Positions 5,673 to 53,471 of a stretch of 64,000 bases of DNA are shown here, one piece after another. The stretch's first letter is position 1; each line of letters begins with the position of its first letter. The stretch spans positions 17,998,803-18,062,802 of the forward strand of contig CM028339.1 of assembly GCA_016647705.1 (NCBI GenBank). The letters are read 5' to 3'. Below the pieces are notes generated by a model. That model was given only the letters and a program-made list of their open reading frames with translations, was not told where the DNA came from and ran no database searches. The DNA is from Eucommia ulmoides (lineage: Eukaryota > Streptophyta > Magnoliopsida > Garryales > Eucommiaceae). The position numbers and the translations under genes are program-made.

Positions 5673-5961
5673 GAGAAATTCTGAAAAATCTCCTGAATTG
5701 CAAAAAATGGACCAAATCTGAGCAAAAGTCAAGTGATTTCCGTACAATATAGACATGAGTGCTTTCACTTTTTGACCATTTTGGTAGAGACATCCAAGCC
5801 ATGGACACTCCCCATTGCCTATTATCCCCGTGTGAACCGTTGACTTCAGACTCCATTTGAAGCTACACTGAAACTAAGCACAATAAGACCCATCTCCTTC
5901 TCCCATCCTATAATTTTTGCTCATATTCTTAGCAAGAAAAAATAACATCAAAAGACTCCAA

Positions 5962-10343: not shown

Positions 10344-10407
10344 CCGGAGTCCAATGAAATGTTTCACCAGAAGCTTTAGAGGTTTTAGGGTTCAAATTAG
10401 GATTAAG

Positions 10408-11041
10408 CTAGGAAAGCTCATCTAGAGCAGAAACTCCGACATTCTCTTCTGCTTTCAACTCCGATATTTCATCCTCTATTTTGTCGCTCACAAATTCCAG
10501 AGCTTCCACGCACCGATGTGCTTCATCAAAGCGTTGTTGTGCTTTCTCCAACTCCATCTTCCTCTGCCTCCTGTCCTTTCTGGCCGCTTTTATCACCAAC
10601 GCGGTGGTGATTTTTGCCTCCCCAAGGAGCGACAACCTCTGACAAACCCCCGCTGATTTCCGGAACTCTGCCAAGACATCACGCATCCATGACACCTGGA
10701 GATTTGCGTCCTCCGCATCCGCGACCTCGTTCTCGATAGCATTGATCTCAGAAACCACGGCTTTGACGTCGTCGTTCTGGAGCCTCTGAACGACATCGCA
10801 GATGACCTCGAGAAGCGAAGATCTGACGGCGACAGATTTGTAGCGACAGTCAGCGGCGATGTCTCCATACTTGGTGAAAATAGCCTGAAGCGTCAGCTTA
10901 GCACTCGCCTTCACTTTGTAGCCATGGACCTCCTCAATCTCTGGACGGGGCATTTTCTGATCTTCAGAATCCTCCGAACTCCAAGAGTTGGAGCGACTGC
11001 ATGAACCAGTCTGACACAGAGTAGGAGCATGCTCCACAATC
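10408..11041 (-). CDS. PDS5-like gene, exon 20: PEARLI-4-like C-terminal domain
   Basis: The last exon (634 nt to the TAG) begins at an acceptor 'ggtgaag' and completes a split Ala codon. It encodes about 210 residues containing [32 protein letters not shown] and [17 protein letters not shown], then a long helical, charged stretch with [16 protein letters not shown] and [16 protein letters not shown] that reads as coiled coil. This fits the plant PEARLI-4 ('phospholipase-like') family, whose biochemical role is not established. In the plants I know, such domains occur as separate proteins, so the join to a PDS5/Tudor protein is notable. A separate gene starting inside this exon remains possible. 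Confidence 0.65.
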
Positions 11042-14000
11042 CTTCACCAAAAATTAGTTAAATTTCAATAAGCTTCAGCAATACGAAATCATTGAATTCT
11101 CCGATAACTGCGAATGTGTTCAGTTCAATCGCTTACGCTTTGGAGGCATTATCAGGAAGGACCTCATTTGGCTGGGATTTGATTTTGCGAATCTTGTGGG
11201 GTTTCTGACTCGGTTCACTACCACTATCACTATTGCTAGAGACCTGTATACAGAATGTCATACACTATGATTAGTAGTAATTGCAATGGGCCGGGCCGGG
11301 CCGAGTTCCATGAAAAATCCAAATCCAAATCCGCTGTGATCGCCTTGCCCAAGGGCCGACCTTGCCTTCGGCATGTTTGGTAACACTCTTTAAGTGGGGC
11401 TCTTGCTCCATTGATATCTTATAACAAAAAAGGGCAGCCCAGCGCCAAGCCTCCTGCCTCCAGTAGGATCTGGAGAGGGTCAGATACACGCAACTTTACC
11501 CCTGTTGTATACAGAGAGGCTGTTTCCAAAATTTGGACCAGGGACCTCCAAGTCACAATGGAACAATCTTACTATTGATCTCTCTCAAAAAAAAAAAAAA
11601 AAAAAAAACACTACCTTTTGCTTTCGAAAAGAAAAAAATTACTTAAAGAAACGTGTTACCAAACCCAAATTTCTGTTCCAGTATCAAAAGAAAAACCTGA
11701 AACAGAAATCTGAGAATGGAAGTACTAAACAAAACGGAGCCTTGCGTTCGGAAGCACAAAATTGAAACCATAAAATTGGAATTGAAAATAAATGCATACA
11801 AACTTAATTTCCAAATTCCAGAGCTCCAATTCCATGCAGCCAAACGCAACCTTAGGCAAATACGAAATCTACATAGAGCATGCATCAGGATCAAGAGAAA
11901 AGGAAATCAATCACCTGATATGACTTTGATTTGCTTCTTCCATCATTAACAGACTGCATGCAAAAATATAAAAGTCAAATAAGGCTAAAAGCATCATTAA
12001 TCTCTTCCAAACCAATGAAAAAAGAAACCACCTTATGCTTCTTCTTGCTAGCACCACCAGCAAAATCATGGACATCATTACTAGACCTGCATGACACAGA
12101 ATTTTTTCCGAAAGAGGGGGAAAGATCAAATTCCGTTAAGGCAACGCTTGGTAATATATTTTAAGCATTTTTCAAAAAAAAAAAAAAAAAAATGAATGAC
12201 AAAAAAGTACTTTTACTTAGAATTAGAAGCATGTTTGATCGGGTAAAGGGGATAGCTTAAAGCGCAAATCGATATTACTTTTTAAGTTTGCGCAAATAAA
12301 TACAAAAAAAAATGTTTCCAAACAATGCTTCAATGAAAATCCATATAAGCTCATGACGTGCTCACTTATGATCTGAATCTGAAGTATTCAGAGCTTGAAT
12401 GGCGCCGCGCCCCTGTACGTACATGTACCCAACCATCAAGAAGAATTTAAAGAAAAACAGGGGGAGAAAAATAAAGTAGGAAGTTAAAGATTGAGTCATG
12501 ACACTCACTTGATCTGGTGCAACATCATCTTGAACTAGTTGCCACTTTTGCCTTCGAAGATCCAATAGTTCTTCATCGCCATCATCATAAAGTACCTATG
12601 CAAGAAAACATGGAACAAACACACAATATTGTACAACTCACAGATTCACAAAGCAACTACCTAATTACTTCAAGCAGTCTCTACATGTTCACAGGCGACA
12701 ATATATACATATATCTATGTAGCCAGAATTATAAAGAGGGTCTAGAGTCATCCGACCTGGTGCTTCGTTTTCGAATGGTCAAATGAAGTAACAACTCCGT
12801 CGTAAAACCTGCACAGCATGAATTAGCTTTATTACAAATGTCCAATAGGTGAAGTATATGAGACCAGAAACATATCGTATTTTCAAGAAAATTTCAAGTC
12901 ATAAATATACAAGCTGAAGGTCGGTCAGCATCAATTCGAGACACATTTTCAAGAGATTTTTCATTTGTTCTATAGTATTTAAAATCCAATTATTCTAGGA
13001 GTACGGTTTGCATGGCAAATCTTCACTTTGCTTGAGTCAAAAAATTCCCTACAAGGTAAACAAATCTTCACCTTGTTTGAGTGAAAAATATTCATATATT
13101 TCTATTTTGATGATCCAATTGGCCTAACTCACGCCTTGTAAGAGGAGGATTGTCCTAAACTTTATCTATAACTCAGGATCAGGTAACACAAGCGATGTGG
13201 GATTCAACTTGCTCCCTCACGCACAAGGTGAATTTTGACAAACCACTGCGAACGGATATCGGGGGGGAGGGGGGGGGCAACATTAACGTGGGATTCAACA
13301 AATGCATATAAAATTCCAAAAATATGGCTTTCTATTTCATTGTCCACCTCTCATTCTTCATCAGAAGCAACCAAAAGTAACAGTTTTCACTTAAAGGAAA
13401 CAATTATGATGCCCAATATGAATCTATTAGCAATATAGGCGACAATGGCATTGTAGCAAGCATGAGCTAATTTGCTAACACCAATTATGGATTTTCAAAT
13501 GTACTCTTAGAATAATCATATTGATTGTCGAGCATGCCAATTAGTTAAGTAACCATCCTTATCATTTGCCACGACATGTTACCACGGGAGTTCCAAAATA
13601 TTGTCATTTTTTACGATAGTTATTCTAATCGATCTGACTTATTGCAAAATTATTCTGAATTTTCTTCTATGATTCAGACCCAATTCTCTAGACAAGTCAA
13701 AGTCTGTTGTTCCAAGAAAACAATGGAATACAAAGACAATGCATTTCACACCCTTCTTTAAGAAAATAGTACACCGATCATGTCCTGATGCCTCTAACAA
13801 AATGGTTGTATTGAACAAAAATATAGACACATCGATACTGTTTGCCATCCGTATCTCTTTATGTATACGTTTTTGGGACAAAGCCGCCCTTACTGTGTCT
13901 ACTCCATTGATCATATTCCATCACCCACTATAGAAAATCATTTACCGTATCAACAACTACATGGTATTCCTCTAATTTACAATTTGCTCAAAGCTTTTCA

Positions 14001-17000: not shown

Positions 17001-20000
17001 TCAGTATAAGGCATCTCTTCCCATTGCTTCTCTAGCTCAACGAGGTACTTCTTCTACTTGTCTTTCCATTCACCCTTCCCACACCCTGGGTCATAGATTC
17101 TACTGTCACTGATCACATGTCAGGTACATCTTCCTTATTTACGCATATCCAGTCATCTTTTTCATTATTTCCTGTTACAGTTGCTGAGGTTCCACTGTCC
17201 CTATCCGTGGCATTGGTACAGTGGAACCCCCATCCTCCTTATCTCTCTCCTCTGTCTTGTATATTTCTTCGTTTTCTTTTAATTTGATGTCAGTTAGTAA
17301 GCATACCAAACATCTTAATTGTTCTGTCTCATTTTTTCCTGATTCTGTCATTCTCCAAGATTTGAGAATGCGGAAGACGATTGGCACAGGGGCGTGAGGA
17401 AAATGGCCATTATTACCTTGATCATGACGAGAGTACTGCTAAACCCCCTACTGCATGCCCTGCTGTTACATCCGCTCACCAGATCCATTGTCGTCATCCC
17501 TGCCTTGGCAACCTCAAGTAACTTGTTCCTCATTTAAGTCATTTGTTTTCATTAGAGAGTGAGTCTTATTAATTGGGTAAGCATCATCGTATTTCATTTG
17601 CTTCCCTAGCTCATATTCAAGCATCGAGCCCTTTTAGTTTAGTTCATTCAGATATTTGGGGTCTTTCTCGTGTTATTTCTACATCAGGTTTTCATTAATT
17701 TGTCACATTTATAGATGATTTTTCAAGAGTTGCTTGGCTTTATTTAATTAAAGATCGTTCAAAATTATTCTTTATTTTTCGTGCATTTTGTGCTGAAATT
17801 AAAACTCAATTTAATGTACCAGTGCGTATTCTTCCTAGTGATAATGCTCGAGAATACTTTTCTCAGCCATTTACTTCATTTATGTCGCACTCTGGTATCT
17901 TGCATCAATCTTCTTGTCCTTACACACCACAGCAAAATGGAGTTGCTGAGCGCAAGAATCGACATCTTCTAGAAGTAGCTCGTACTCTTCTTTTTGAAAT
18001 GAACATTCCCAAACACTTCTGGGGCGATGCGGTTCTTACAGCTTGCTTCCTAATCAACCAGATGCCGTCCTCTACCCTACATGGCAAGGTTCCCCATTCC
18101 ATTCTTTTTCTCCGTTCACCCTTGTTTAGTTTACCTCCTCAAATATTTGGGTATGTTTGTTTTGTTCATCAGTTGACTCCCATGGTATGAGCCATGGCCC
18201 TATATTCCGATTCTGCACTTGACCGCGCCATAACTGCCTGCTTTTTACTCTTCCAAGAAACGAGATTACCTCCAACAAACACACAATACCTTATAGTAGA
18301 CTCCTATCTGAGGGAGATCTGGCCTAATCTGTATCTGTATATCCCTTAATTTGAGTGTGACCGAAGTTCTGATACAACAAACTACATCCTGGACAACCTT
18401 TCAGATATCGAAGGATACAAATCACTGCATCCCAGTGATAAGTTGTGGGACGATCCAAGAAATGACTGATAACACTCACGGCAAAGGAAATATCTAGTCT
18501 AATAACCGTTAAGTAGTTCAGCTTACCAACTAACCGTCTATATTACGTTGAATCTGTCAATGGTACACCTTGATCTGCTAATAGTTTGTTGTTAGGATCC
18601 ATAGGTGAATCAATCGGTTTAGCTCCTAGCATTCCTGTTTCACTTAACAGATCAAGAGCATATTTCCTCTGACACAGGTAAATATATTGGCTTGATCGAG
18701 CAACTTCAATCCCCACGAAATACTTAAATTGACCCAAGTCTTTGGTTTGAAACTTGTTATGCAAAAACGTCTTGAGTTCCTGAATAACCTGGTAGTCGTC
18801 CCCGGTAATCACGATGTCATCCACAAACACAATTAACAATATTCTCCCGATTTTACTGTACCTGTAGAATACAGAATGATCGACTCCACAATGTCGAAGA
18901 CTAAATTCAATGACCACTTCACTGAATCTTCCAAACCATACTCGAGGAGACTGCTTGAGATCATAAATGGATTTCCTCAGGCGACATACCAAACCAGACT
19001 CCCCCTAAGCAACAAACCCAGGAGGTTGCTCTATGTACACTTCCTCAGTCAAATCGCCATTTAAGAACACATTCAGGATATCAAGTTGATGTAACGGCCA
19101 ACAAAAGGTGACAACCAAAGATATGAACAAGCGAACAGAAGCGATTTTGGCAACGGGAGAAAAAGTCTCAGAATAATCAAGACCATATAACTGAGTGTAA
19201 CCTTTGGCAACTAAACAAGCCTTGAGTCGATCAATGGTGCCATTCGGATGAACTTTGATTGTATACACCCATTTACATCCAACTATTGTTTTGTCAGGCA
19301 AAAGCGAGACAAGATTCCAAGTACCATTCTGATGTAAAGCTAGCATTTCCTCTTTCATTGCGGTCATCCAACCAAGGTGAGTGAGAGCCTCTATGATAGA
19401 CTTAGGAATAGAAACAGATGATAGAGAAACAACAAAAGAGGAATATGAAAGAGACAGGTGTGCATACGAGATAAAATTAGAAATAGGATGTTGAATACAT
19501 ATACGCTTACCCTTTCAAACAGCAATGGGTATGTCCAAGTCAGACACGGATGGATGAACTGGAGAAAAATCTGAAGACACAGAGACGATGAGCTTGATGG
19601 CGGAAGCTACCTTCTGGCGACGATAGTATACCTGCAAAGGTGGTGAACGACAACTAGGCGGGACAGGTTCTGGAGTGGAAGGAGATGATGTCGGGTCGGG
19701 GAGGCTTGGTAAAGGAAGGGTGATATCCACATCGTCCCAAAGGGATAGGGCAACAAAGTAAGCGGTGGACTCAAAGAAGGTGACATCTGCACAAATGAAA
19801 AAGTGACGTAAAGAAAGACTATAACATCGATAACCTTTTTGCGTGCGAGAATAACCAAGGAAGACACATTTTATGGCACGAGGATCTAACTTATCCTTGT
19901 CGGGAGTCAACTCGTGGACGAAACAGACACATCCAAAGATACAAGGAGGCAAAGCAAATCAGGGTGATCGGAAAAAAAGAATAGAATGAGGAACTCTGCC

Positions 20001-23000: not shown

Positions 23001-23929
23001 ACATTATCTTTGATCCCACTCAAACGTCCCCTCCCTTCCCGATATCTTCCTTTTAATAGTACTAATCATCCTATTGCCAAGTATATGTTTTTCAGAGTCT
23101 CTAAGCGCACTACAAATCTTTCCTTGGTCAAAGTTAATTCAGTCGCACTTCTTCGATTAGTTCACGAGTCTCTCCAAAATCTAATGTGGGTGGCCGCTAT
23201 GAAAGCGGAAATGGATGTTCTTTAGCAAATCAAACTTGGTACCTGGTTGACCTACCTACTAGTAAGCGACTAGCTAATTTTAAGTGGGTTATCAGTATGT
23301 AATATTTGTCAATAGCTCCATTAACCCATACAAAGCCCGACTCGTTGTAAAGGGTTCACCTCAAAAAATGAGAACTTCGGTGCAACCTTTATCCTTGTTG
23401 CAGAGTTGACCACAATTTGCCTCCTCGTCTCCTTGGCCGCTACATGGATCCTCCACCAAGTTTTCAGGCTCTGGGAAGTATTTAGGGAACACGTGTTGCC
23501 TTCGATTAAGCAATTCTCGCGGGCTTGGTTCAATCGTTTTAGCAATGTTATCCTTACCATAGGATTTACCCAATGTCACTCAGATCACAAATGCTTCATA
23601 CATCATCATTCTCAGGATCAGTGGATCATTATCTAAGTATATGTGGATAAAATTATCATTACTAGGGATGGCGTGCTAGGTATTGTTCGGGTAAAGAGTG
23701 ATATTGGGAATTTTCGACATTAAAGATTTGGGTCCACTTCGATACTTTCTTGGGATTGAGATTGCTCAATCTTGCCAAGGTATATCACTATCTCATAGGG
23801 TTGGTCATGGGCTCAGGGGTCGGCATAGCCCGGTACCCTTTTTTTAGGGCTTAGGCTTCAAGGCCCGACCAAATTTAGGGTCAGCCTTGGGTAAGACCAA
23901 ATTCTTTTATGGTCGAGTCGGCCCGGTCA

Positions 23930-23972
<43 letters not shown>

Positions 23973-35900: not shown

Positions 35901-38900
35901 AGGGGATCGTTAAAATATTTACTTTTAATATGTTATTTAGTATTTTACGTCATGTTGACTAATATAGTAGTTACTTTTATTCTTTTATTACCCCCATTTA
36001 TTCGGGGCGAGTTACTTCCTTGTTTGGTCTACTTTTATGATTATATAATCAAAGCAGTATACTCAATGTAATATACAAAATTAATATTTGGGGAGTGTAG
36101 CCTCAATGTACTATACAAATTACAATATTATTCTTTCTCCTATATTTTTTTTTTGGTCATTAGAGTTTCAAGAGCTCGAGTTCCATTATGTTCTTGTCAA
36201 ATAGACCTATAACAATAAATATGATCATATTGTCTCTGTATCAATACGGCCTAACAAAACATTATAACTATTGCTCGAGGATGATATCAGTCAACTGGAA
36301 AATTCTTGTCAGATTAATAATTGCAACCTTTAATTATCTTCCTTCTATGAGGGTGGCTTATTGTACTCCTAGATTCCCTCTTTATATTGAGACCTCATAA
36401 GTGCAACAGTACAGTGCAATATAATTCGGCCCTCTAATTCAAGGCTAGGGAATAAAGTGAACACATCTATTAGTTCCCCCAAACCCATTCCAGAAAATCT
36501 GGCAAAACATTGGTTTCCACTGCATAGATTTATGAAATTAAGAAGCGAGACATCTATGAATGGAATGCAGTAGCAGAATAATTTCAATTAACATGTTCGA
36601 CAACTCACATCTTGTCCTTTGGCCACCAAACCTTTATCTTGGACCCAACCAATTTCTCGCCTTTGACAGAACCGGTAATTTTGGAAGCCTGAATAGGAAA
36701 ATAAAAAGTATAACCAATCCAGAGATTTGCAAAAATAAAAGAAATATTCAATCTGAATGCATGCACACGGAGAGAGTAAATTAAGCATAATTCCCATGGA
36801 ATTCATCAAGAACATGCCCGCAAAATTAATGGCAAAAAAATGGAGATTGACAGGTCAAATGCAACATACTAGATTCTTGTTTGTTCAGCAACATAAATAT
36901 CTTAATAGTTCTCAATTCTACGAATATTGGTATTTAGTACAGAAGATTATTTATCTGCTACGGTGTATTGGTATTGAATACCGTAGATTCTATATTTGCC
37001 AAAATAGCAAAATAAACATCGAAAAAAACGTAAATGAGCATTAAGCAATTAAAGCATAAGTAATAATGAAACTACTTGGGAAGCATCTTACGCATACCAA
37101 TACATTTGAACTTTCCAATTTAAGGTGTCAATAACCGCTGCCTTTGCAGGTTTGCATTAAGAAATCACTCCTTGAATGATTTTCCTTTACCCTTTTAAGC
37201 TGAGTTTTCATGACATTTCAATAAATTTGATGGTCTCTGAAAATGTTTGAGATTGACATACAATTAAATTAAAATATCACAATAATTTTATAAATACTCA
37301 AATTCTGATTCGATTATATTAAGCCACTGCTTCCTCTACAAAAACCATTACGATGCACAAATAACAGCAACATTAATACATGTGCAGCAACAATTAAGGA
37401 GCAACGTAGGCCCTTCTATACTCCATTATTTTAGAAGCAAGCGGCTTAGCAATTAAAACATGATACATTGCTACACATAATGCAAACCCTATCGAAAGGA
37501 CACCTTAATCCTTAGATCAAAATCATTAAAAATAAGGATGGGTTATTTAAGGTAGTGAAATCCCAGTCCACATAGAAAGTACCACCTATCTCTATTAGAG
37601 CTAAAATCATACCTCATCCATATGTGGATTGTGGCTCCTCTTGTGTTTTGCCTTGGATGCTTTATCAACCTTGCTTTCGTCTCTCCTTAATGATTTGGTT
37701 GTAGAATGAGAAGCCATACGCTACACAGCGCAAACAAATAAATAAGCAAAAGCAATAGAAATAAAGTATCAAAATGCATGAGTTATGAGAAACTTGGATC
37801 GGTGCAATTCATAAAGAATTTTTTTCAAGATCAATGTAGTCAAAGAAGATTTACCAAATCTGTTCAATGAATACCTGGCCACCAGCTTCTTTCTTCATGG
37901 GAACAGTGCTCGCCCCACTCAGTTTCCCATAATCTGTTGACCGGACAGCAGAAACAACTTTCCCTTGAGGACAGTTGTGGACCCCATCGGTCTTGATGGC
38001 AGTATTATTTCCCGTTAAGGCCCTCTCACTTTTCGGTTTCTCATCTCCCTTACAATGCAAAATTCATACTAGTTCAGTTGCACGTGCAAGACACGTGGTG
38101 CAAGCATGTGGTGCAAGACACGTGCTACAGTCTAGCGAACCATTTGACAAGGCTTTTACAAATATTTTTAACAATCCAAAAATAAACAAATAAATATATG
38201 ATTAATAACCATGAGGATAATTATCCCAAATTCATGATTAAGAGATTTTTTATGTCCTACTTTTATTCTCCATTTCTTTGAAAAAAACTATATTTTCAAA
38301 AACAATTTTGATTCTTTTTTTATTTTTTCCTTTTCTCAAAACCCTAAAAGAATATTTTGAATTAAAAAAATGTGTCACCAACAGTGGCTAATTTCTTTGA
38401 AAGTTGAAATTTTGCTTTTGTCAAAAGACTATATCAGAGTACCATAAATAGTGATTTTTTATCGTCTAATTTTTCAGGTAACTTTTCCCTTCTTGTTCAA
38501 TCAGTCATCGAGTTTGAAATGGTTCCAAATAGTTTCAAAATCAAGCCGAAAGAGTGCTGACATTTTAGTTGTGCAGCTGTGCTTTAGATGGAAAGAGGAT
38601 AAAAAATTATTAGGAAAGCAAAAGCCTTTATATAGGAACAAGGACGGATATATAAATTGGCATGGAAATGATTGGTATCATAACTAATGCTTCTTTAAAA
38701 ATGCACTTTTTTGGCAACTTTTTCCCTTATTTGATCAATAAATTACAGGACTTCAAAATGAATCTAAATAGTTTCAAAATCAAACAAAAAAAGATGCTGA
38801 CATTTTAGTTGTGCTGTTGTGCTTTAGACAGGAAGAACAATAAGAATTATTAAGAAAGAAAGAGCCTTTATAACGGGGCAAGGATGGTAATATGAAATAG

Positions 38901-41900
38901 ACATGGGGAAAAAATGATATCATACGGTGAACGGTGCAATTTTCATTCAAGAAACCCTATCTTTTATAACAGAAAAATAACAATGATTTAGGAGCAACAT
39001 AAAGCCCCCCATATCCTCCATCATTTTAAAAGGTAGGAGATTAGCAATAACCTGCAATACAATGCTACATTACTGCAAAGCTATAGAGAAGACAATGATC
39101 TATAGAAATTCTTACCTCTTCCCTCTGTGACTTAGGCTTCCTCTTGCGTTTTGCCTTGGATGCTTTACCAGAATTATTTTCATCTCTACTTTTTGGATTG
39201 GTTTTAGAGTGAGATGCCACATTCTACATAACCCAAACAAATGTATAACCAATGCAGTAAAAATCAAGCATGGAGAATGAGAACACTTGGACAGGTACAA
39301 CTATGTAAGAGAAATTCTTAGTTTCTTCAATTGTCGAAGAAGAATTATTCGGCCGGTTCAACTTATACCTGATCACCGGTCTCTTCAACGACATCCCCAA
39401 AGGTCATGGTGGCAATAATATACTCTCTAAGGGGCATCCCACGTTTGGATTTTACATCTCCCTTACAATGCAAAGTTCATATTAGGATAGTATTCATGTA
39501 ATTTCGATAACAACAATTTAGCAGTAACATAACCCCTTCAAATACACATTATTTTTAAGGAAGCATCTTGGAAACCATCCCATGACACATTGCCACATAT
39601 AACGGGAAACATATGGAGAGGAAACCTTTTTATAAAAAATGGTTAGGTCACTTTAAGACATCAAATCGGATGTCCAAGCTACTTTGCATACCTCTTCCGT
39701 CGGATTACACTTCCTCTTGCGCTTTTCTTTGGACAATTTATCAATTTGTTTTCCATCTCCAGTTAAGGATTTGGTTGTAGAGTGAGAAACCACATCCTAC
39801 ATAGCCCAAACAAATACATAAGCAAAAGTGGTAAGAATCAATTATGTAAAGTTTGACAAACACTTAGATCGTTGCCATTAATAAAGATAATATTTAGCTC
39901 AAGATCAGAGCAACTATTAAAGAAGAAATATTTAGTTCAGGATTGGAACTGATTCTTGACCCGTCACAGAAACAACTCTTCGCCCACTTTGTTCCTTCAC
40001 ATGTCCCTTCTAATGCAAAATTAAGAAGGAAAAATTAACAGCATTCATGTATATTTTAGCAACAACAGTTTAGGAGCAATATAACCCCTTCAATGATATA
40101 TTACATTTAAGTAAAGCATATGGCGAGGAAAGTTAGGTTTCTTGTAGCCTTGACGTCCCATATAGAATGTACTAGCTAACTTGCAAAGAGCCAAGGTCAT
40201 ACCTCTTCCATCTTTGGATTACGCTTCCGCTTGCGCTTTCCCTTGGACGCTTTATAAAGTTTTTTGCCATCTACAGTTACAGAATGAGAAGCCATATCCT
40301 GCATAGACCAAACAAATACATAAGCAAAAGTGGTAATAATCAAGTATGTAAAGTTTGACAAACACTTAGATTGGTGCAATTCATAAAGAATAATTTGTTT
40401 CTAGATCAGAGCATCTATTAAACAAGGCTCAAGATTGGAGCAATTATCAAAGAGAAGTTATTTAATCAGTTCAATTAATACCTGGTCACCATATTCTTCA
40501 TCCTTCATGGAATCAGTTCTTGACCCACTCTGTTTCTTAGCATCTTTCAGCTGGACAGGCGACTTATGGACCCCATTGGTTTTGGTTGCAGTTATATTTC
40601 CCGTTACTTTCCTCCCACATTTTGCTTTTGCATTGCCCTTACCTTTGGATTCCTTTTTCAATTTGACAGATGTACACTCTGAATCTTTCTTCTCAACTAG
40701 AGTCAGCAACTCTCCCTTCGAAGCTGATAAATCCAAATCCGGATGCTTTTCCACAATTGGGACCAATTTCCGAACCTTATCACGTTTGGAATGGACCCCG
40801 TCAGGAAAACTGTCATTTTTAGATGAGCAAGCACGTAAATCTCCATTAAGCAATGATTTTGGTGAACAAACGGGAGACTGAGTCTCCTTTTCAGACCCTG
40901 ATGGTAAAATTTTCTTCTTTCGGGGTATCTTGGTGTGATTAGATGGTCGAAGATATTTTTTCGTCATAGTTAACCAAGAATAATCATATCCCTCCTCCGG
41001 TTTCATCAAAGTATTAGGCTTTCTATCCCGTTTCTTTCGAATTGCCACTGACTCTAATTCTTGTTCCTCCACCGATTTGGAGCCATCGGAATTTCCAGAT
41101 TGCTCGTTTCTTACATCAGTGCTGGTCTCATGAGAACGCTCTAATGTCTTATGCGATTTTCGATCATCAGAGGTGTTATCATTGCTTGATTGAGCTGGGC
41201 CATTGTTTATCACTAATATGGTCTTTCCATCATCATCATCTACTGCAAGCTCTTTAAACTCCTGAAAAGAAATTTGAACACACTTCCAATGGTGAATTTA
41301 TCAGGGGAAAAATGAGACAAGACGATCTAAAGGCTTCATATCACCCTTGTAATGATGAGATTTCTCATACGGCCAAGATGGCCTGATTTTTTTCCCAACA
41401 TCCCCCCCACCCCCTCCCCAAAAAAACAATTACTCATCTTTTAGAGCATGACAAGCAATGGGCTCTATGGTTGAATTCACAAATCTAATTTTGAGTCTTG
41501 GAATGGCGACAACTGAACCAATGCAGCCGGGCATATACCATGCACTTATTGAGAAATGATAATTACACTGTGCCACTTTTTAATAGTAATTGTAGTCAGA
41601 TTAGTTACTACAAAGAAGATAAACATCTAAGGTCATATTTGGTACATGGGATTCATCTTGGGATTGGAATGAAGTTGGGAATGACCATTCCATTCCTACA
41701 TTTGGTTGATGGGATTGGTTTTCATTCCCATTCCCAAATAATGACTAATCCCACAACTCATGGAATTAGTCAATTCCAAATAAAATGAGGTATTAGGTAA
41801 TCCTAGAATTACCTAGTCCCAAATGAAATGAGGTATTATGTAAGAAGAAGGATCTATACTTCTGTTTCCGTATTTTTCACAACAGAAAATAAAATTCTGG

Positions 41901-44900
41901 GAACAGAAACAAAAATATAGTGGTGTTGCTTTCATATTTCTGTTCCCAAAAAACATGGAACGGAAACAAAAATATGGGAACAAAATCTGGGAACAAAAAC
42001 AAAAACAGAAATCTGGGAACAAAAACAGAAATCTGGGAACAAAAATATAAATCTGGAAACAAAACAAAAACAGAAATATGGGAACAAAAACAGAAATCTA
42101 GGAACAAAAACAAAAACAGAAATTTGGGAACATATTTATGTTTTTGTTCCCAGATTTCTATGTTTGTTCCCATATTTCTGTTTGTGTTCCCAATTTTCTA
42201 TTTTTGTTCCAAGAAAACCTGGAATATAGATATAAAACTCGGAATAAACAACTTTTCCTCCATATGTTTATTTGTATTCCCAATTTTATGAGAACATAAA
42301 CACTAAACAAGTGAGGCATAAGTGGGATTTGATATTTCTATATCTTAAGTCCGTTGATAAAATAATTGGAACAGAATCAGTAAAATTGGGAAAAATCTGT
42401 TTTGTTCTGTTCTCAGATTTTTACAACAAAATCCTGGAATCAAAATATAAGCAAATCATTTTTTTATTTTTATTTTTCAATTATAAATTTTTTTGCGAAC
42501 AGAAAAAAGGGAAACAAAAACACGAAAGTACTTCCAAACCCTTTAATTTGTCGGGTTAAAGGATAACCTAGGTGACATTTGTTTAGTGCCTTTAAATAAT
42601 TCTGTTATGTTCACAAAATTTTGTTCTAAAATTTCCGAATATTTAAGAATATTGTTTCATTTTTATTTATTGGTCATTCCAATACTATGTTTAATGTATT
42701 TTGTAACCAAATATAGGAATGGTAATGGTCATTCCAATACTATATTTAATACCGTTTATCACCAAACATAGGAATGGTAATGGTTATTCTATTTCAACAC
42801 CATATTCATTCCAATACCACACTCATTCAATTCCATTTTATTCCATTCCAGCGTACCAAACATAGCGTAACTGTCAGTCTTAGACATCGAAATCATTAAA
42901 ACGTTCCTTTCAAACTAATTAATTTTACTTTCTTCCCTCTCTTTTAAACTAGTCACGCTCTACTCGTGCCCTTCCAATGCAATTGATTATCATATATTCA
43001 CCAAAACATATAGCTGGCAATTGAATATATTTGTTCGTTTTAATCTACAACAACGAATTACCGAAAGCAAAGGGAAATGCAACTAGGATGCATAGATTCA
43101 CAAGTAGGAGAAACGAACCAGATTTTCCTTTCCAGATGTATCCTGACATATTGAAGTGACTACATCAGCATAGTCATCTAAAGCAAGGCCCGTGGCCCTC
43201 ACTGCTTCCGGGAGATATGGTTTGAGTTTGGTAGCACAATTTTCTAACACTTTCTTCCCCAGCATCCATGAAATAGGTGAAATAAACTGGGAAAGAAATT
43301 ATTAAACCTGATTAAAAATTCATACAGAACTATGGGAATGTCTAAAATGGAAGAAAAAGCCAAGAAGAGGGCAAAACCTGATTTTCGTTTTTTACGCTAG
43401 TTAGAAGGAGAATCAAAAGCTCAGATGCCACATCTTCACTTTGCTGCACGACCAAAGTCATGATTTTCTCCATGTTTGCAAAAACATCTGGGGGGTGCTC
43501 AGGCCTTGTGGTGCAGGAAAAAAAAATCCATAGTATTAATTAATCAGAAGAAAATGCAACTATAGAACCCAAAAAAAATTCTTCATTTAACCATACATGC
43601 ACATATAAAAGCCTATACGCCTTCCAAGCGAAAACTACTATATACCCTCCGTGGCTAATCACCGGTAAAGAAAAACATCACCATCACACTCTGCCTAAAT
43701 AAGGAAAAATACCTAAAAGAAAATTCAGACATTTACCATTCCTAGGGAAACGATACATGTTAAACATGTATAACAGTTGGATGTAAATAAATGTTTTTCT
43801 ATGCTGCCTTCCAATATATACACTAAATATATCCTGGGAGTAAAATAATGCCTTATTTCCAAAGTAAGAACCATGTAATACCTTATGCATAAAAAGAGTA
43901 CATGAATGCATAAGCACTAAGCGGCTGCTTCATATGAGTAGCAACTTTCAGATTTATTCTATTTCCAATTCTAGATCAGTTCCAATCTTAGAACGACTTG
44001 ACACGTGTGCAACTATCTGCAACAGCAGCGGATCTAGAAAATTGTTTTTTTTTTTTGGGGGGGGGGGGGGGGGGGGAATAAATCTTTCGGGGGGAGTTTA
44101 TTAAACACTTCTATAAATTAGAGGGGGGCTTATGTAAATTTTTAATGGGTTCTGATTGATTTTTCCTAAAACAAATATAGGGTTAATAGTGAAGAGTTGA
44201 GAGGGCGTGGGACTTCAAGCCCTCCTGGGCCCTTGATAGATCCGCCGTTGATTATCTACTATTAAAATTTTTAAGTAGTGGAAACATGTCTTAAATTGAA
44301 AACATATCTAAGGATTTTATCAATAAATTCTATATTACAGGATTAACAAGCATAATCAACAACTAAACAAGTGCGTACAAGAAAAATAATAAGTAACTGC
44401 CCAGTATTACGTTATTAACTTGGAAAGCATTCAAAATTAGAACTATTAAGACATTTATAACACCCGCAAGAAGGTTGATGATTTAGAAAATAGAAGCTAG
44501 TCGGTCTTTGTCTCACCTAGACTTTCCTATTTCATGTTGCCATTCTATTCAAATTTTACCTAAAAATAACAAAGATGGCACTGTTGGATCCATATATCAT
44601 GCGGCGACCAAATGTGTGCCACCAAGCCCGGCAAGTCCAAAAGAGTATTTATTATTAAATAAAAAAATCTACTCATAGTAACCGGAAACACCCTTAAAAC
44701 AGGAAGTGAATCCAAATCCAATAGATGTCGGACTTGGATACATAGCGAAAATTGTTAAATTGCAAGCAGCCAGCCTCCATCTCAAGGAAAAAGTGATTTG
44801 ATTTTATAGGTGTAAATTCAAGAAGGTAGACAATGAGTTCTCAGATATGATTTGAATCGTAATCAATCATCGCAGTCCAGCTTGTTCCAAAAAGGAAATT

Positions 44901-50900: not shown

Positions 50901-53471
50901 TGTAGCAAGGGAGAGTCAAGTGAAGCAATAAAATTTCAACGTCGAGCCAAACTGCAATAGCTCTGAAAATGGACTTGGTTTCTACAACCAGTCAAAACCG
51001 TCCAACAATCAAGATAGTGAAACAATGAAAGACGTCTCTACAAGCTAACTTGGGGGGGGGGGGGGGGGCTACTATAGAGCTCTTACCGAATTGTTTTCAG
51101 AAACTGTTGAAACATTTTTTCAATTAATGCATCCAACTCAAGATCCAACATCACTACGCATAACCTGAATGTTGCAAAAGCTTTAAGAATAGAAACTGCT
51201 CTAGAATAACAGCGACCAGTCATAGGAAATAACTTCTCAAATGCCACGACAGTCAGCTGAAAGAAATTCTGTGCAATGCAATAACCAAAGAAAAAGTTAT
51301 GAATAGTTAATAATCAAAACAGGCATACAAATTGAAGTTTATACTATGAAAGAATAAAAGAAAAAAAAATTAAGTTCCTTACACCTTTATTTGTTCATCA
51401 TTGTAAGGAGCATCGGGCGCCATTACTCTTGTAATCTCACTTATGCAAGATGCTACTGAAACTTTCACATTTATGTCCTCGTGCCTCACTAGTTCATCAG
51501 CAACCAAGGCCTTCGCTACAGGTAGAACTGCCTCCTCCATTGAGCTGGATGGATCTTGCCGCACCTTTGATAAAAGATTCTCCACTTTCTAAAAGTGGAA
51601 ATGAAACCAAAGAAACAAATTTCAGAACTCAGAGGAACATGAGGTGTAACATACAAAATAATTGGTTGCAGGATTACTCTTGAGCAAAAAGGGAAAAACT
51701 CATAGACAGCAAAAAAAAAAAAAAAAAGTGCAGGGATAAGCTTGTATAGACCATTGAAAGAACGGATGGATAATCTAGATCTCAGGGGTAAGGTTGCGTA
51801 CATTTTACCCTCTCCAAACCCCGCAATGGCAGGAGCCTTCGTGCACTAGGCTACCCTTATTTATACAAAATCAGTTAATAAAAGCTTTTGAAGCCCAAAT
51901 CATCAATGCTTGAAGGCCCTCCTTCATGAATCACTCCTCTCGCTGACAATGGAATTCTCATTTTTATCCCATATACCTCTCCAAAAATTTATTGCATCGT
52001 CTCTATAAACCATGTGAAGGTTACAAATCCCGCTTTGAGGAAATTTCTCATTAAGAATTAGCACTTTCAGCCATGAGTGATGATATTATGCAGAGTAATC
52101 ATGCAAAATATATGCTAAATGTCCCCCCAATGCCTTATAAAGGCCCCATTCTTAAGATGACCCCTTGTACATTTTCTTCCAACCCGCCAAAAGTAAATTA
52201 ATATAAATGATTAGTCATAACAAAATTGAAGAATTAGGTTAGAGAAGAAGAGGCAGGAAGTAGGAGACTGACATAAAGACATCAAATTAAGGTTGCCTAG
52301 TGAATAAATAGGTCGTTGAATCACCATTTAATGCACGGAATAATTAGCATAACATTGGTTTCTGATTGTTTCACTATCCCTTATTACATTATTATCTTCA
52401 ATAATATAAATAGTATTTCAAATTGGATATAAGACTTAATCTCTCAACACCTTTCATTTATTTATTTTTTCCTGTCTTCTTTTCACCAAATTAACTGTAA
52501 CCGGACAATGCCGTTGGACCCATCCATGTATAATAAAAACCTCAAACAACCCACATCGGCAACCCAACGGTGAGGGTATGACTCCATGTGTATACATTGT
52601 GGGTGCACAAAGGTTATACCAGATTTTCAGTACAACCTCCATTCGATCATTGCCATGTGGATTGAGAAACACATCACAAACATTAAAAATAAAACTACTT
52701 CCACATGGAAAATTTTGAATGGAAGATGTACAAAAAAATCTGAATCAACCTTCCTACCAGATTTTTTCCCATGCACAGAGCCTAAATTACTGTACTTATA
52801 TAGGCATAATACCTAAAACTCAACACGAAAATTGTGACGCTCATCAAGTAATCACAAATCCATTTGTGGGCTCGTGGCGAATTTTACTAGGTTTGAGTTA
52901 TTAGACATAGAAATCCAAGAGCTAAACACCCTAATATAAGAATGCTTATATCAGTAACCTAACAATCAATAATTAATCGTCCATCTTAATCTGTAAACCC
53001 AACAGCAATCGCTAATTACCCTGCCATTGCTTCAACTTAAATTCACCAAACCCCTGTTGAACTACTCAATTTCCAAAGCTGATCAAAAGGGAGTGTATCA
53101 GCAACCTATAAACACATTGATGCAACGACTAACCATTTGAAAAATCAAAGTACCTACCCTTGATTCTAACGTCTAAACACAGATATCTCCCTGATTGAAT
53201 TCACGAGAAGTAAAAACGTGAAAAGGGAAAAATCAATGCGCGTTGTTTTTGACACTGATTCAAAAACCCTAACTAAGAAAACTCGAATTTCTCTTTGCGA
53301 GTGTATTTGCATTCGAGATACATCAAACAAGTAAAATCAAGTGGGTCTTACGTCAAGCAGACACAGAAGCGCCTGCTTGGATGATGGTGGCGCGATAAGA
53401 TGATTCCCGGCGTCAAAGAGCTGTGCTCGAAGCTCATCCTCTGAAATAGAAGATGAACGAGAAGGGGCCAT
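10408..53471 (-). CDS. PDS5-like cohesin cofactor with Tudor and PEARLI-4-like domains, 20 coding exons
   Basis: Joined by eye from GT-AG sites with consistent phase; about 1,117 codons. Exons in gene order: 53352-53471, 51385-51588, 51087-51256, 43378-43504, 43119-43286, 40482-41261, 40203-40298, 39692-39796, 39369-39461, 39116-39223, 37875-38048, 37613-37720, 36609-36688, 12757-12808, 12509-12595, 12366-12412, 12032-12086, 11915-11953, 11137-11243, 10408-11041. PDS5 proteins bind cohesin on chromatin and act in cohesion and repair; the plant PDS5C-E types are shorter and end in a Tudor domain. Here the N-terminal HEAT-like part, basic linker and Tudor domain match that type, but the last exon adds a PEARLI-4-like domain. 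The start [15 protein letters not shown] fits the family. No internal stop was found in the chosen exons. Exon borders come from inspection, not transcripts, and alternative splicing is likely in the repeated small exons. Confidence 0.8.
11137..12412 (-). CDS. PDS5-like gene, exons 16-19: short linker exons
   Basis: Four small exons with matching phases: 12366-12412 ([15 protein letters not shown]), 12032-12086 ([18 protein letters not shown]), 11915-11953 ([13 protein letters not shown]) and 11137-11243 ([20 protein letters not shown] then [14 protein letters not shown]). The encoded segment is polar, rich in Ser and Lys, and probably disordered. It joins the Tudor domain to the last exon. 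Its phase-correct connection to that exon is the key evidence that the PEARLI-4-like part belongs to the same transcript. Confidence 0.7.
11424..11582 (-). mobile_element. Au-type SINE in intron 18
   Basis: On the minus strand the order is a box A-like 'tagtaagattgttcc', a box B-like segment around 'ggaggtccctggtcc', then 'ttttggaaacagcctctc', 'gtaaagttgcgtgtatctg', and the terminal 'gcgctgggctgcccttttt'. This is the typical Au SINE structure, nearly full length, in the same orientation as the host gene. A poly-A run of about 22 lies just beyond its 5' side on the plus strand (11588-11609). Confidence 0.8.
12509..36688 (-). CDS. PDS5-like gene, exons 13-15: Tudor domain split by a 23.8 kb intron
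   Basis: Exon 13 (36609-36688) encodes [17 protein letters not shown] plus the first two bases of a Met codon. Exon 14 (12757-12808) supplies the third base and [17 protein letters not shown]. Exon 15 (12509-12595) encodes [18 protein letters not shown]. Together they form a complete Tudor-like beta barrel of the PDS5C type, with the WWP and YDDGDEE motifs that mark this group; Tudor domains commonly bind methylated histone tails. The split Met codon is completed exactly across 23.8 kb of intron (12809-36608), which supports the junction despite the distance. Confidence 0.9.
12813..13535. other. Start of intron 13, no gene recognised
   Basis: Unique-looking AT-rich intron sequence with short repeated phrases ('caaatcttcac.ttg') around 13015-13080 and a G-rich run (G7-A-G9) at 13261-13277. 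No coding signal. Confidence 0.4.
13540..14335 (+). mobile_element. Ty1/copia integrase relic
   Basis: Broken plus-strand frames resemble a copia integrase core: a region resembling [16 protein letters not shown], then [10 protein letters not shown], then [20 protein letters not shown], followed in other frames by pieces resembling the region after the integrase core. The expected glutamate region (normally 'QNG..ERKNRHI') is degraded to [13 protein letters not shown]. No LTRs belonging to it were found. It lies in intron 13 of the PDS5-like gene, antisense to that gene. Confidence 0.6.
14349..14870 (+). mobile_element. LTR and primer binding site of a truncated retroelement
   Basis: A candidate 5' LTR (14349-14545, TGTCGG...ATTCA) with a TATA-like 'tatatatac' is followed at 14548 by 'ttggtatctagagc', the initiator Met tRNA primer binding site typical of plant copia elements. 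About 320 bases of leader-like sequence follow before the next element begins at 14871. No matching 3' LTR was found in the window, so it is truncated or was disrupted by later insertions. Confidence 0.55.
15220..18181 (+). mobile_element. Truncated copia element inserted in the opposite orientation
   Basis: A related LTR (15220-15383) with primer site ttggtatccagagc is followed by leader, gag (from the ATG at 16081; [20 protein letters not shown]), a frameshifted zinc knuckle ([14 protein letters not shown], near 16792-16833), a protease remnant with an altered active site (DSTV in place of the usual DSGA), and integrase with [22 protein letters not shown] and [14 protein letters not shown]. 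It stops abruptly at 18181, just after integrase, with no RT, RNase H or 3' LTR of its own. On either side lie the two halves of the RNase H of the surrounding minus-strand element, with about 120 bases lost at the junction. Confidence 0.8.
16855..16969. mobile_element. Small LTR-like (TRIM-like) insertion within the copia gag region
   Basis: Between the zinc knuckle and the rest of gag-pol of the plus-strand copia copy sits a foreign segment TGTTAGGATCCCACATCG... ending ...gggtttgtaacc, with internal phrases 'cctaggcaccctccccttg' and 'gggtgagttctacctag'. This resembles solo LTRs of small nonautonomous (TRIM) retroelements common in plants. Imperfect flanking words cgttg and cattg could be the target duplication. 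Family assignment is from memory of the motif and is tentative. Confidence 0.45.
21370..21571 (-). repeat. 101-bp tandem duplication of the gag start in the copia element
   Basis: Two successive copies (21370-21470 and 21471-21571) differ at a handful of sites. On the minus strand each encodes the start of the gag protein (an Met-Ser-Thr start followed by PLTTRKLN). The second copy ends the frame and leads directly into the zinc-knuckle region, so the gag core of some 200 codons is missing. Confidence 0.8.
23934..23990. repeat. (TA)n/(CA)n microsatellite near the hAT left end
   Basis: A run of TA units, a few CA units, then TA units again. It lies in the subterminal region of the hAT-like element. 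Confidence 0.9.
25200..26310. repeat. TTTCTG / TTCCC minisatellite-like filler inside the hAT element
   Basis: Many imperfect repeats of words such as 'gttcccagatttctgttt', 'gttcctgtttct' and 'gttccctgtttctg', together with a direct duplication of a longer segment: 'acctgagtgtttttgtt' to 'atgcgtttgtgtatatt' occurs at about 25652-25766 and again at 26110-26224. Open frames across this region (25676-25918 and 26188-26385) are by-products of the repeat. Confidence 0.7.
26596..26893 (+). pseudogene. gag-like fragment (UBN2-like), uncertain
   Basis: A 98-codon open frame with [20 protein letters not shown] and [18 protein letters not shown]. The phrase '..I.DGLPS.W' and the helical pattern recall the gag regions of plant copia-type elements, but similarity is weak and no zinc knuckle follows. 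It may be a fragment captured in the hAT element. Frames just downstream carry basic, arginine-rich words but soon hit stops. Confidence 0.35.
27656..34099 (+). pseudogene. Helitron RepHel gene (HUH rolling-circle endonuclease plus PIF1-like helicase), broken
   Basis: Exons by eye: 27656-27783 ([11 protein letters not shown] start), 28195-29417, a piece from 29503, one from 29825, then Rep from 29936 ([18 protein letters not shown]). Rep carries the HUH motif HMH at 31290-31298 and the two-tyrosine motif [10 protein letters not shown] at about 31690-31719. The helicase from 32536 has the Walker A motif GGADTGKT near 32704-32727, then [18 protein letters not shown] and [10 protein letters not shown], an intron (about 33230-33331), and the C-terminal motifs ending LYVALSRC. 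Frames break near 28681, 29005, 30619-30880, 31480-31520, 32410-32535, 32871-32940 and 33928, so no functional protein is expected. Enzymes of this type nick and replicate Helitrons by a rolling-circle route. Confidence 0.8.
28393..29006 (+). repeat. 390-bp tandem duplication in the N-terminal part of the Helitron gene
   Basis: The segment starting catcagag(t/c)ctacgcc at 28393 recurs at 28783. The first ~220 bases of the two copies are very similar and both encode serine- and threonine-rich sequence with ILSDQ and NSRST. A more diverged third copy follows at about 29155-29390 and perhaps a fourth at 29500-29720. Between them lie basic stretches of the form RRERERxxxQ. The N-terminal region of plant RepHel proteins is poorly conserved, so expansion by repeats is plausible. 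Confidence 0.7.
35909..36150 (+). repeat. Putative 3' LTR of the split copia element
   Basis: Directly after a purine-rich tract (cctgaaggggatc) the sequence GTTAAAATATTTAC begins, consistent with an LTR whose first T is lost or shared. It is AT-rich, with two similar phrases 'cctcaatgtactatacaaa' and 'actcaatgtaatatacaaa' about 55 bases apart. The right end is unclear; I put it before the poly-T near 36150. Confidence 0.45.
36151..36608. other. End of intron 13 (gene-sense start), no feature recognised
   Basis: Ordinary AT-rich intron sequence between the copia relic and exon 13 of the PDS5-like gene. No repeat ends or coding signal seen. Confidence 0.4.
37613..40298 (-). CDS. PDS5-like gene, exons 7-12: tandemly repeated small exons
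   Basis: Six small exons, all of length divisible by three and all bounded by phase 0 introns, belong to two related types. Type B exons (40203-40298, 39692-39796, 39116-39223, 37613-37720) share an MASHS or VVSHS start, a KASK-like middle and a basic cluster such as [11 protein letters not shown] or [10 protein letters not shown], ending in a Glu. Type A exons (39369-39461 and 37875-38048, plus the tail of exon 6) begin GDVKSKR or GDEKPKSER and end near GDQ or GGQ. Order is A-B-(broken A)-B-A-B-A-B. Introns between them also resemble each other, so genomic segments were duplicated, not only exons. The basic clusters suggest nuclear targeting or nucleic acid contact; this is inference. Confidence 0.8.
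38084..38124. repeat. Short tandem repeat with CACGTG words in intron 10
   Basis: Three tandem units of 13-14 bases of the form gtgcaagacacgtg (the middle one reads gtgcaagcatgtg). The palindrome CACGTG, a core G-box bound by plant bZIP and bHLH factors, occurs at 38081, 38092 and 38119. It lies 36 bases upstream, in gene sense, of exon 11. Regulatory use is unproven; it may simply be a repeat. Confidence 0.6.
38446..38926. repeat. Tandem duplication of about 240 bp in intron 10
   Basis: 38446-38687 and 38698-38926 are two diverged copies sharing blocks such as 'aatagtttcaaaatcaa', 'gctgacattttagttgtgc' and 'gtgctttaga', in the same order and spacing. They lie in the intron between two module exons of the PDS5-like gene. 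No ORF is conserved between the copies, so this is intron sequence duplicated in place. Confidence 0.75.
39955..40013 (-). pseudogene. Degenerate copy of the type A module exon
   Basis: Between exons 7 and 8, the minus strand has the acceptor-like context 'gcattagaag' followed by GGACATGTGAAGG, encoding [17 protein letters not shown]. This matches the start of the type A exons (acceptor context 'gcattgtaag', GDVKSKR). The position of the expected donor reads GGTCAAGAATCAG instead of ATCAGgt, so the donor is lost. I left it out of the gene model. It could be a skipped exon relic or be spliced to another nearby GT. Confidence 0.55.
40482..41261 (-). CDS. PDS5-like gene, exon 6: long basic disordered region
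   Basis: A single 260-codon exon, rich in Lys, Ser, Asp and Glu, with low hydrophobicity. It begins [17 protein letters not shown] and contains [20 protein letters not shown], a conserved stretch of plant PDS5C-like proteins, followed by many short Lys/Arg clusters that could act as nuclear localisation signals. Its last 50 or so codons (from about [17 protein letters not shown] to DEEYGDQ) are the first copy of the 'A' module that is repeated in the exons downstream. The region probably links the HEAT part to the Tudor domain. Confidence 0.85.
41631..42867. mobile_element. Harbinger-like nonautonomous element in intron 5
   Basis: The ends are GGTCATATTTGGTACATGGG (left) and, reverse complemented from the right, CGCTATGTTTGGTACGCTGG: imperfect terminal inverted repeats sharing TTTGGTAC. 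They are flanked by TAA on both sides (41628-41630 and 42868-42870), the 3-bp target duplication typical of PIF/Harbinger elements. Subterminal sequence is full of 'ggaatgg/ccattcc' words, a known trait of such MITE-like elements. No transposase. The interior is a repetitive array with an inversion in the middle. Confidence 0.65.
41860..42240. repeat. Inverted array of 'aacagaaatctgggaac' repeats
   Basis: From about 41880 to 42135 the plus strand repeats words like 'aacagaaatctgggaac'. From about 42137 onward the complementary orientation appears ('gttcccagatttct', 'gttcccatatttctgtt'). The switch lies near 'acatatttatgt' at about 42130-42141, itself palindromic. The array could fold into a long hairpin. 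Confidence 0.7.
42871..43118. other. Intron 5 beside exon 5, no feature
   Basis: AT-rich intron sequence between the Harbinger-like element and exon 5. Nothing recognised. Confidence 0.4.
43119..43504 (-). CDS. PDS5-like gene, exons 4-5: end of the HEAT-like region
   Basis: Exon 4 (43378-43504, 127 nt) completes the split Arg codon from exon 3 and reads [19 protein letters not shown] then a run ending [11 protein letters not shown]. Exon 5 (43119-43286, 168 nt) reads [20 protein letters not shown] then [10 protein letters not shown] and [14 protein letters not shown]. The phrase [13 protein letters not shown] is conserved among plant PDS5C-type proteins. A short intron of 91 bases separates the two exons. 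The 7.6 kb intron upstream contains an entire nest of mobile elements. Confidence 0.9.
43505..45330. other. Intron 3, gene-distal part, with long G tract
   Basis: No coding signal. The main feature is a T12 run followed by 20 consecutive G (44057-44076). The rest is AT-rich intron sequence without clear repeat ends. Confidence 0.4.
45340..45790 (-). mobile_element. LINE-like relic (3' region), uncertain
   Basis: The plus strand carries words matching the reverse complement of LINE open reading frame 2 ends: 'cccacctaagtatggcctactacatgaat' style text at 45380-45415, then 'ttttctatgcacatgctcaaac' at 45573-45595 and 'ttcattcttaatcttattca' at 45660-45680, in the same order as in the clearer LINE tail at 47665-48110. 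No intact protein remains. Assigned by comparison with that copy. Confidence 0.5.
47477..47623 (+). mobile_element. Au-type SINE with internal deletion
   Basis: Box A-like 'gggtacaatggtaaggtt', a box B start 'ctagagatcc', then the conserved right part 'aaattgcgtacatct', 'ccaaaccccgcaatgacg', 'ccttcgtgcactggactgcccttttttt'. The middle part between box B and 'tctgtatac' is missing compared with the copy at 11424-11582. Confidence 0.8.
47665..48110 (-). mobile_element. LINE (L1-type) 3' end with the C-terminus of its reverse transcriptase
   Basis: A 109-codon minus-strand frame (47762-48091) reads [36 protein letters not shown] and [16 protein letters not shown], which is the C-terminal end of plant LINE polyproteins. 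After its stop the minus strand continues into a short 3' UTR and ends in a TTG-rich tail (47672-47685, plus-strand caacaacaacaac). Severe 5' truncation is typical of LINE insertion. Confidence 0.85.
48364..50260 (-). mobile_element. Ty1/copia relic in intron 3, related to the 14871-22397 element
   Basis: An LTR (48364-48493, ending tttaaca on the plus strand) has the same block order as the LTRs at 14871 and 22239. Minus-strand relics follow: RNase H (joined straight to the LTR at 'tggcaatcaaattcaatgtg', so the polypurine tract region is deleted), RT (49267-49452: [16 protein letters not shown], with YVNDIV where YVDDIV is usual) and the segment after integrase (49986-50237: [23 protein letters not shown]). 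No 5' LTR. Frames are broken throughout. Confidence 0.8.
50261..51051. other. Intron 3, gene-proximal part
   Basis: No recognisable coding sequence; weakly repetitive text, possibly the decayed remainder of the copia element up to about 50570. Nothing else could be supported. Confidence 0.35.
51052..51068 (-). other. 17-base C tract (G on plus) just after the exon 3 donor
   Basis: Seventeen consecutive G on the plus strand, so C17 in the pre-mRNA, starting 18 bases into intron 3 (donor at 51086). Homopolymers of this length are unstable and could affect splice-site recognition or be a sequencing artefact. Confidence 0.7.
51087..53471 (-). CDS. PDS5-like gene, exons 1-3: N-terminal HEAT-like region
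   Basis: Exon 1 (53352-53471, 40 codons) encodes the start and [18 protein letters not shown], ending in CLLD. Exon 2 (51385-51588, 68 codons) continues with [20 protein letters not shown] and the strongly conserved [17 protein letters not shown] followed by APDAPYND. Exon 3 (51087-51256, 170 nt) carries [20 protein letters not shown] and [20 protein letters not shown]. These are the signature helices of plant PDS5 proteins that pack as HEAT repeats and contact cohesin. Phases are 0, 0, then 2. Intron 1 is 1.8 kb and intron 3 is 7.6 kb, both enlarged by repeats. Confidence 0.9.
51783..51858 (+). mobile_element. Au-type SINE, 3' part only
   Basis: Contains 'ggggtaaggttgcgtacat', 'ctccaaaccccgcaatggc', 'ccttcgtgcactaggctaccc', the right half of the Au SINE. 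The tRNA-like head is absent. It lies in intron 1 of the PDS5-like gene, opposite to its orientation. Confidence 0.75.
51859..53351. other. Intron 1, no gene recognised
   Basis: AT-rich sequence with no convincing ORF and no repeat ends. A few short phrases resemble degraded LTR sequence, but nothing can be assigned. Confidence 0.4.

Follow-up and report, generated by a model that had tools for sequence, protein, structure and literature searches.

The best explanation of the sequence, to which a probability of about 0.7 is given, is that a single gene of Eucommia ulmoides encodes a PDS5C/RDM15-type protein with a C-terminal PEARLI-4 module. The gene is located in the minus strand, from 53471 to 10408 of the analyzed window, a stretch of 64,000 nucleotides (G000:C15:17998803-18062802) of a genome of 946.7 Mb in 391 contigs. 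RDM15 and PDS5C are taken here to be two names of one Arabidopsis gene. The twenty exons with consistent phases described in the earlier note were rebuilt, all with GT-AG borders and with phases that agree throughout, and the joined exons comprise 3,366 coding bases including the stop codon, which correspond to a single open frame of 1,121 amino acids.

The following exons (all in the minus strand) were defined by the rebuilt gene model. The start codon at 53471 is located in exon 1 (53352..53471), and the PDS5 HEAT region, also delimited by a profile match, includes exon 2 (51385..51588), exon 3 (51087..51268) and exon 4 (43378..43504) and ends in exon 5 (43119..43286). A basic, Ser/Lys-rich linker begins in exon 6 (40482..41261) and continues up to exon 12. 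A repeat comparison has assigned exon 7 (40203..40298), exon 8 (39692..39796), exon 10 (39116..39223) and exon 12 (37613..37720) to a repeat type A, and exon 9 (39369..39461) and exon 11 (37875..38048) to a type B. The Tudor domain starts in exon 13 (36609..36688), continues in exon 14 (12757..12808) and ends in exon 15 (12509..12595), all three supported by a match to the PDB entry 7DE9. A short Ser/Lys-rich tail is formed by exon 16 (12366..12412), exon 17 (12032..12086), exon 18 (11915..11953) and exon 19 (11137..11243), the latter with a phase 2 end. Intron 19 (11042..11136), defined by splice-site analysis and sequence, separates the tail from the last exon, exon 20 (10408..11041), which includes the PEARLI-4 domain, identified by profile match, and the stop codon.

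Exons 7, 8, 10 and 12 are mutually alike, and the same applies to exons 9 and 11 and part of exon 6, with 64-89% identity for the repeats that touch these exons (window 37613-41261, minus strand). The basic linker has expanded through tandem duplications that involved pairs of exons. Intron 13 contains mobile elements at 17699-18187 (plus strand), 19008-19514 (minus strand) and 30858-33925 (plus strand), in which the retroelement domains rve and RVT_2 and the Helitron domains Helitron_like_N, PIF1 and Pif1_2B_dom were detected. A B-lectin receptor-kinase-like gene is present at 5914-8132 (plus strand) with the lectin and kinase parts in separate open frames, and it could be either broken or spliced.

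A Pfam profile search with the full model has confirmed the PDS5C-type HEAT region that had been proposed, with a match to PF20168 (PDS5) of 148.7 bits at residues 34-236, encoded by exons 1-5. The Tudor domain matched 7DE9, its sole solved-structure match at E up to 0.01, with 79.9 bits and an E-value of 7.2e-22 in a full-length alignment; the description of this domain as complete was upheld, although the score for the Pfam Tudor family PF21743 (24.5 bits) was under its own cut-off of 27.2. In the source paper, 7DE9 is described as the Arabidopsis RDM15 Tudor domain with an H3K4me1 peptide, in which W616, Y623 and Y641 form the aromatic cage, D643 and D645 contact the methylammonium protons and E647 and Q654 contact H3R2 (PMC8184781). 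When these H3R2/H3K4me1 ligand residues were counted by hand in the 7DE9 alignment, all were kept in the window protein (7/7). Because of the 7DE9 match and the seven conserved contact residues, the Tudor domain of the window protein is likely to be an H3K4me1 reader. RDM15 functions in RNA-directed DNA methylation (PMC8184781), TAD-like domains are held in check by the PDS5 proteins of Arabidopsis (PMC11519323), and mismatch repair is tied to H3K4me1 readers including PDS5C (PMC13361950).

The profile search of exon 20 has revealed the predicted PEARLI-4 domain, with 80 bits and an E-value of 2.6e-22 against PF05278 (cut-off 29.9) for residues 38-181 of the exon (10498..10929, minus strand), and 79 bits in the full 1,121-residue model, so that the absence of a match that had been named as evidence against the fusion did not occur. 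As the earlier note had stated, exon 19 ends in phase 2 (AAAGC|gtaagc), the first base of exon 20 completes an Ala codon (GCG) and 210 further codons remain open after it. When that kilobase was shuffled 2,000 times by base, with dinucleotides not preserved, a frame of at least 210 codons never appeared (0/2,000). A single-sequence structure model of exon 20 had a mean pLDDT of 58.1; the last 60 residues were predicted as a confident helix (block means of 82-97) and the remainder was low, which made the model too poor for a fold comparison. Only 4 of the 177,635 PDB sequences had an E-value of 1 or lower against a five-sequence PEARLI-4 profile; none of them was convincing, and the best, Cas10 at 0.025, was attributed to chance. 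To our knowledge, no role has been assigned to PEARLI-4, a plant domain with a phospholipase-like label. PEARLI 4 genes appear among lipid biosynthesis genes in one report (PMC10949617).

The third-position GC content was 0.58 in exon 20 and 0.39 in exons 1-19, compared with 0.45 in the PEARLI-4 frame of contig C8 and 0.57 in those of contig C2. This contrast points to a separate history of exon 20 and does not contradict the fusion as such. Exon 20 shares only 23-25% identity with the other four PEARLI-4 frames found in this genome, located in C8 and C2, and hence is not a recent copy of them; both a lost donor gene and an old fusion fit its origin.

At the junction between the last two exons, exon 19 ends in AAAGC|GTAAGC, and exon 20 starts at 11041, preceded by TTTTTGGTGAAG. 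The intron has 95 nt and 66% A+T. The open frame of exon 20 begins right at the acceptor, where it is preceded by a TGA codon. The donor of exon 19 (AGC|GTAAGC) scored 0.65 on a matrix built from the other 18 donors of the gene, which scored from 3.7 to 11.3 on this matrix, that is, on its own training set; it is thus the lowest of the 19 donors, and 40% of all GTs in the window score at least as high. The acceptor at 11041 scored 6.3 (4.2 to 15.7 for the others of the gene), a value reached by 3.5% of the AGs of the window, and an acceptor at 10996, in the same phase and therefore also suitable for a phase 2 donor, has a higher score (9.85). In a list of 11 GTs for the interval from 11243 to 11047, only the donor used is in phase 2 (1/11). 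The acceptor-like AGs at the start of exon 20 (scores of 5.66-9.85) occur in each of the three phases and would suit a donor of any phase, so that the phase match, although real as originally claimed, says less than was attributed to it and has been dropped as strong proof of the join. The join of exons 19 and 20 is plausible. In the fusion proposed by the earlier note, the domain identities and the continuous frame stand, but the join itself depends on a weak donor (0.65).

If intron 19 is retained, the frame stops immediately (GCG TAA). According to the strongest of the alternatives, the PDS5C gene would end at this GCG TAA, immediately downstream of exon 19, with the PEARLI-4 frame as an untranslated 3' fragment that has not yet decayed. 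This alternative, which is considered improbable, agrees with the in-frame stop located directly at the supposed donor, with the position of this donor as the poorest of the gene, with the C14 paralogue described below, which likewise finishes in a basic tail without PEARLI-4, and with the mobility of exon 20 pieces, which evidently move about because they have been copied to three other places in a repeated element. The intact frame of 210 codons is against it.

These copies were found when the window DNA at 10300-11300 was compared with the genome, which yielded, in addition to the self match, six pieces at three loci (C2:2.245 Mb, L015; C13:10.353 Mb, L016; C16:32.797 Mb, L017) that belong to a repetitive element roughly 1 kb in length. 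Two pieces of exon 20 are present in the element, from window 10945-10767 and 10662-10553, and all copies have lost the same internal part (3/3). The copies are 85-91% identical to exon 20 and 85-88% identical among themselves. The dispersed copies were also considered as a second exon 19/20 junction and rejected, as they are exon 20 fragments in a repeated element; a 13-nt match upstream of the fragment was rare in one copy (1/200 shuffles) and not in the other two (169/200 each). The source of the exon 20 piece in the element may be either the fused gene or a solo gene that has been lost. In an alignment of 173 bases, the 26 changes found in a single copy were distributed among codon positions 1/2/3 as 10/10/6, and the 7 changes that separate exon 20 from all three copies as 3/0/4; the latter set is small, and some of its changes belong to the stem shared by the copies. 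The absence of second-position changes on the exon side (0/7, versus 10/26 in the loose copies) argues, with small numbers, against an untranslated fragment, and the pattern is only suggestive of constraint on the exon 20 frame.

A family search of the genome, in which 12 PEARLI-4 candidates were scored, gave at least 8 matches, and these same 8 places, with 10 matches, were recovered when exon 20 was used as a protein query. They are the window, C8:75.08 Mb, a cluster of three at C2 (5.26-5.30 Mb) and the fragment copies at the three loci described above. The protein search with the PDS5 HEAT region gave 29 matches, which correspond to 12 loci when grouped by location; several of these are weak or contain stops. 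The window is the only overlap in this genome between the 8 PEARLI-4 places and the 12 PDS5-like loci, most of which were judged solely from the lack of PEARLI-4 matches there; the only other locus followed to its 3' end was C14:35.0 Mb. This PDS5C-like paralogue (L056) aligns with the window gene in the HEAT exons, part of the linker and the Tudor domain, but after the Tudor domain it has a basic tail and a stop codon, whereas the window gene continues into PEARLI-4; the profile search of its tail region revealed the Tudor match and no PEARLI-4 match. A partial duplicate of exons 2-3, with a protein identity of 80-87%, is located at C15:10.698 Mb (L057), on the same chromosome as the window gene and about 7 Mb apart, and no exon other than these two was matched in the 8 kb around that locus.

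The PEARLI-4 exon at C8:75.08 Mb (L009) is the highest-scoring of the genome (102.1 bits). As in the window gene, the domain is contained in one exon, but no PDS5 or Tudor match was found in the 30 kb that surround it, unlike in the window gene. An open exon is located upstream of this PEARLI-4 exon (the pair at L009 8556-8283 and 5848-5070, minus strand); it contains the AT-hook-like stretch RGRGRPPG, and its donor phase fits. If this putative join is correct, the C8:75.08 Mb gene would encode a further PEARLI-4 protein that includes a DNA-binding-like region.

A second and quite unlikely alternative is that PEARLI-4 constitutes a separate or nested gene, with its promoter inside the introns near the 3' end of the PDS5 gene and its start at the first Met of exon 20. 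This Met is residue 30, eight residues ahead of the PEARLI-4 profile match, and the model has no Met from the start of exon 14 up to this residue; in addition, the other PEARLI-4 frames of the genome are unlinked to PDS5-like loci. However, the gap between exons 19 and 20 is only 95 nt, and a promoter would have to be located in introns or exons of the PDS5 gene. The fusion is favored because both exons are on one strand and the short distance leaves little room for a separate promoter. A division by intron 13 (23,800 nt, with copia-type and Helitron pieces) into two present-day transcripts, one with the HEAT 5' part and the other with the Tudor tail and the PEARLI-4 3' part, can practically be dismissed, since exons 13 and 14 agree in phase where they meet inside the Tudor domain, and the match of this joined domain to 7DE9 is full-length.

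Concerning the function of the single fused gene, the HEAT part would bind cohesin and the Tudor domain would dock on H3K4me1 chromatin, and the PEARLI-4 helices and coiled coil would provide an added arm for dimerisation or partner docking that brings a further factor there. Because the stop codon TAA sits within the donor GTAAGC, splicing of intron 19 would decide whether the fusion form or a PDS5C form that terminates in SKA* is produced. A more specific and rather doubtful proposal is that a lineage-specific, H3K4me1-reading cohesin cofactor gained PEARLI-4 when its own TAA became part of the new donor GC|GTAAGC, and that splicing or retention of intron 19 switches between the old PDS5C form and the PEARLI-4-tipped form. 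If this stop-to-donor switch is true, it would give PEARLI-4 its first defined molecular setting. The natural occurrence of PEARLI-4 in one protein with a cohesin cofactor that reads H3K4me1 would suggest a testable chromatin-linked, partner-binding role for this domain. If the fusion is confined to Eucommia ulmoides, its value would be mainly that of an example of exon gain.

No paper that joins PEARLI-4 with Tudor or cohesin was found among the matches listed in the open-access literature, and the combination PDS5-Tudor-PEARLI-4, judged from this one genome and these papers, is plausibly a new one. Compared with the PEARLI-4 family (PF05278), exon 20 is well above the curated cut-off, yet it is linked to a PDS5-Tudor protein. 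The layout reported for RDM15 has the ARM repeat at the N-terminus and the Tudor domain at the C-terminus (PMC8184781). Both RDM15/PDS5C of Arabidopsis and the window protein have a PDS5/ARM-HEAT N-terminus and a single Tudor domain with identical H3R2/H3K4me1 contact residues, and they differ after this domain, where the description of RDM15 ends and the window gene has the PEARLI-4 exon.
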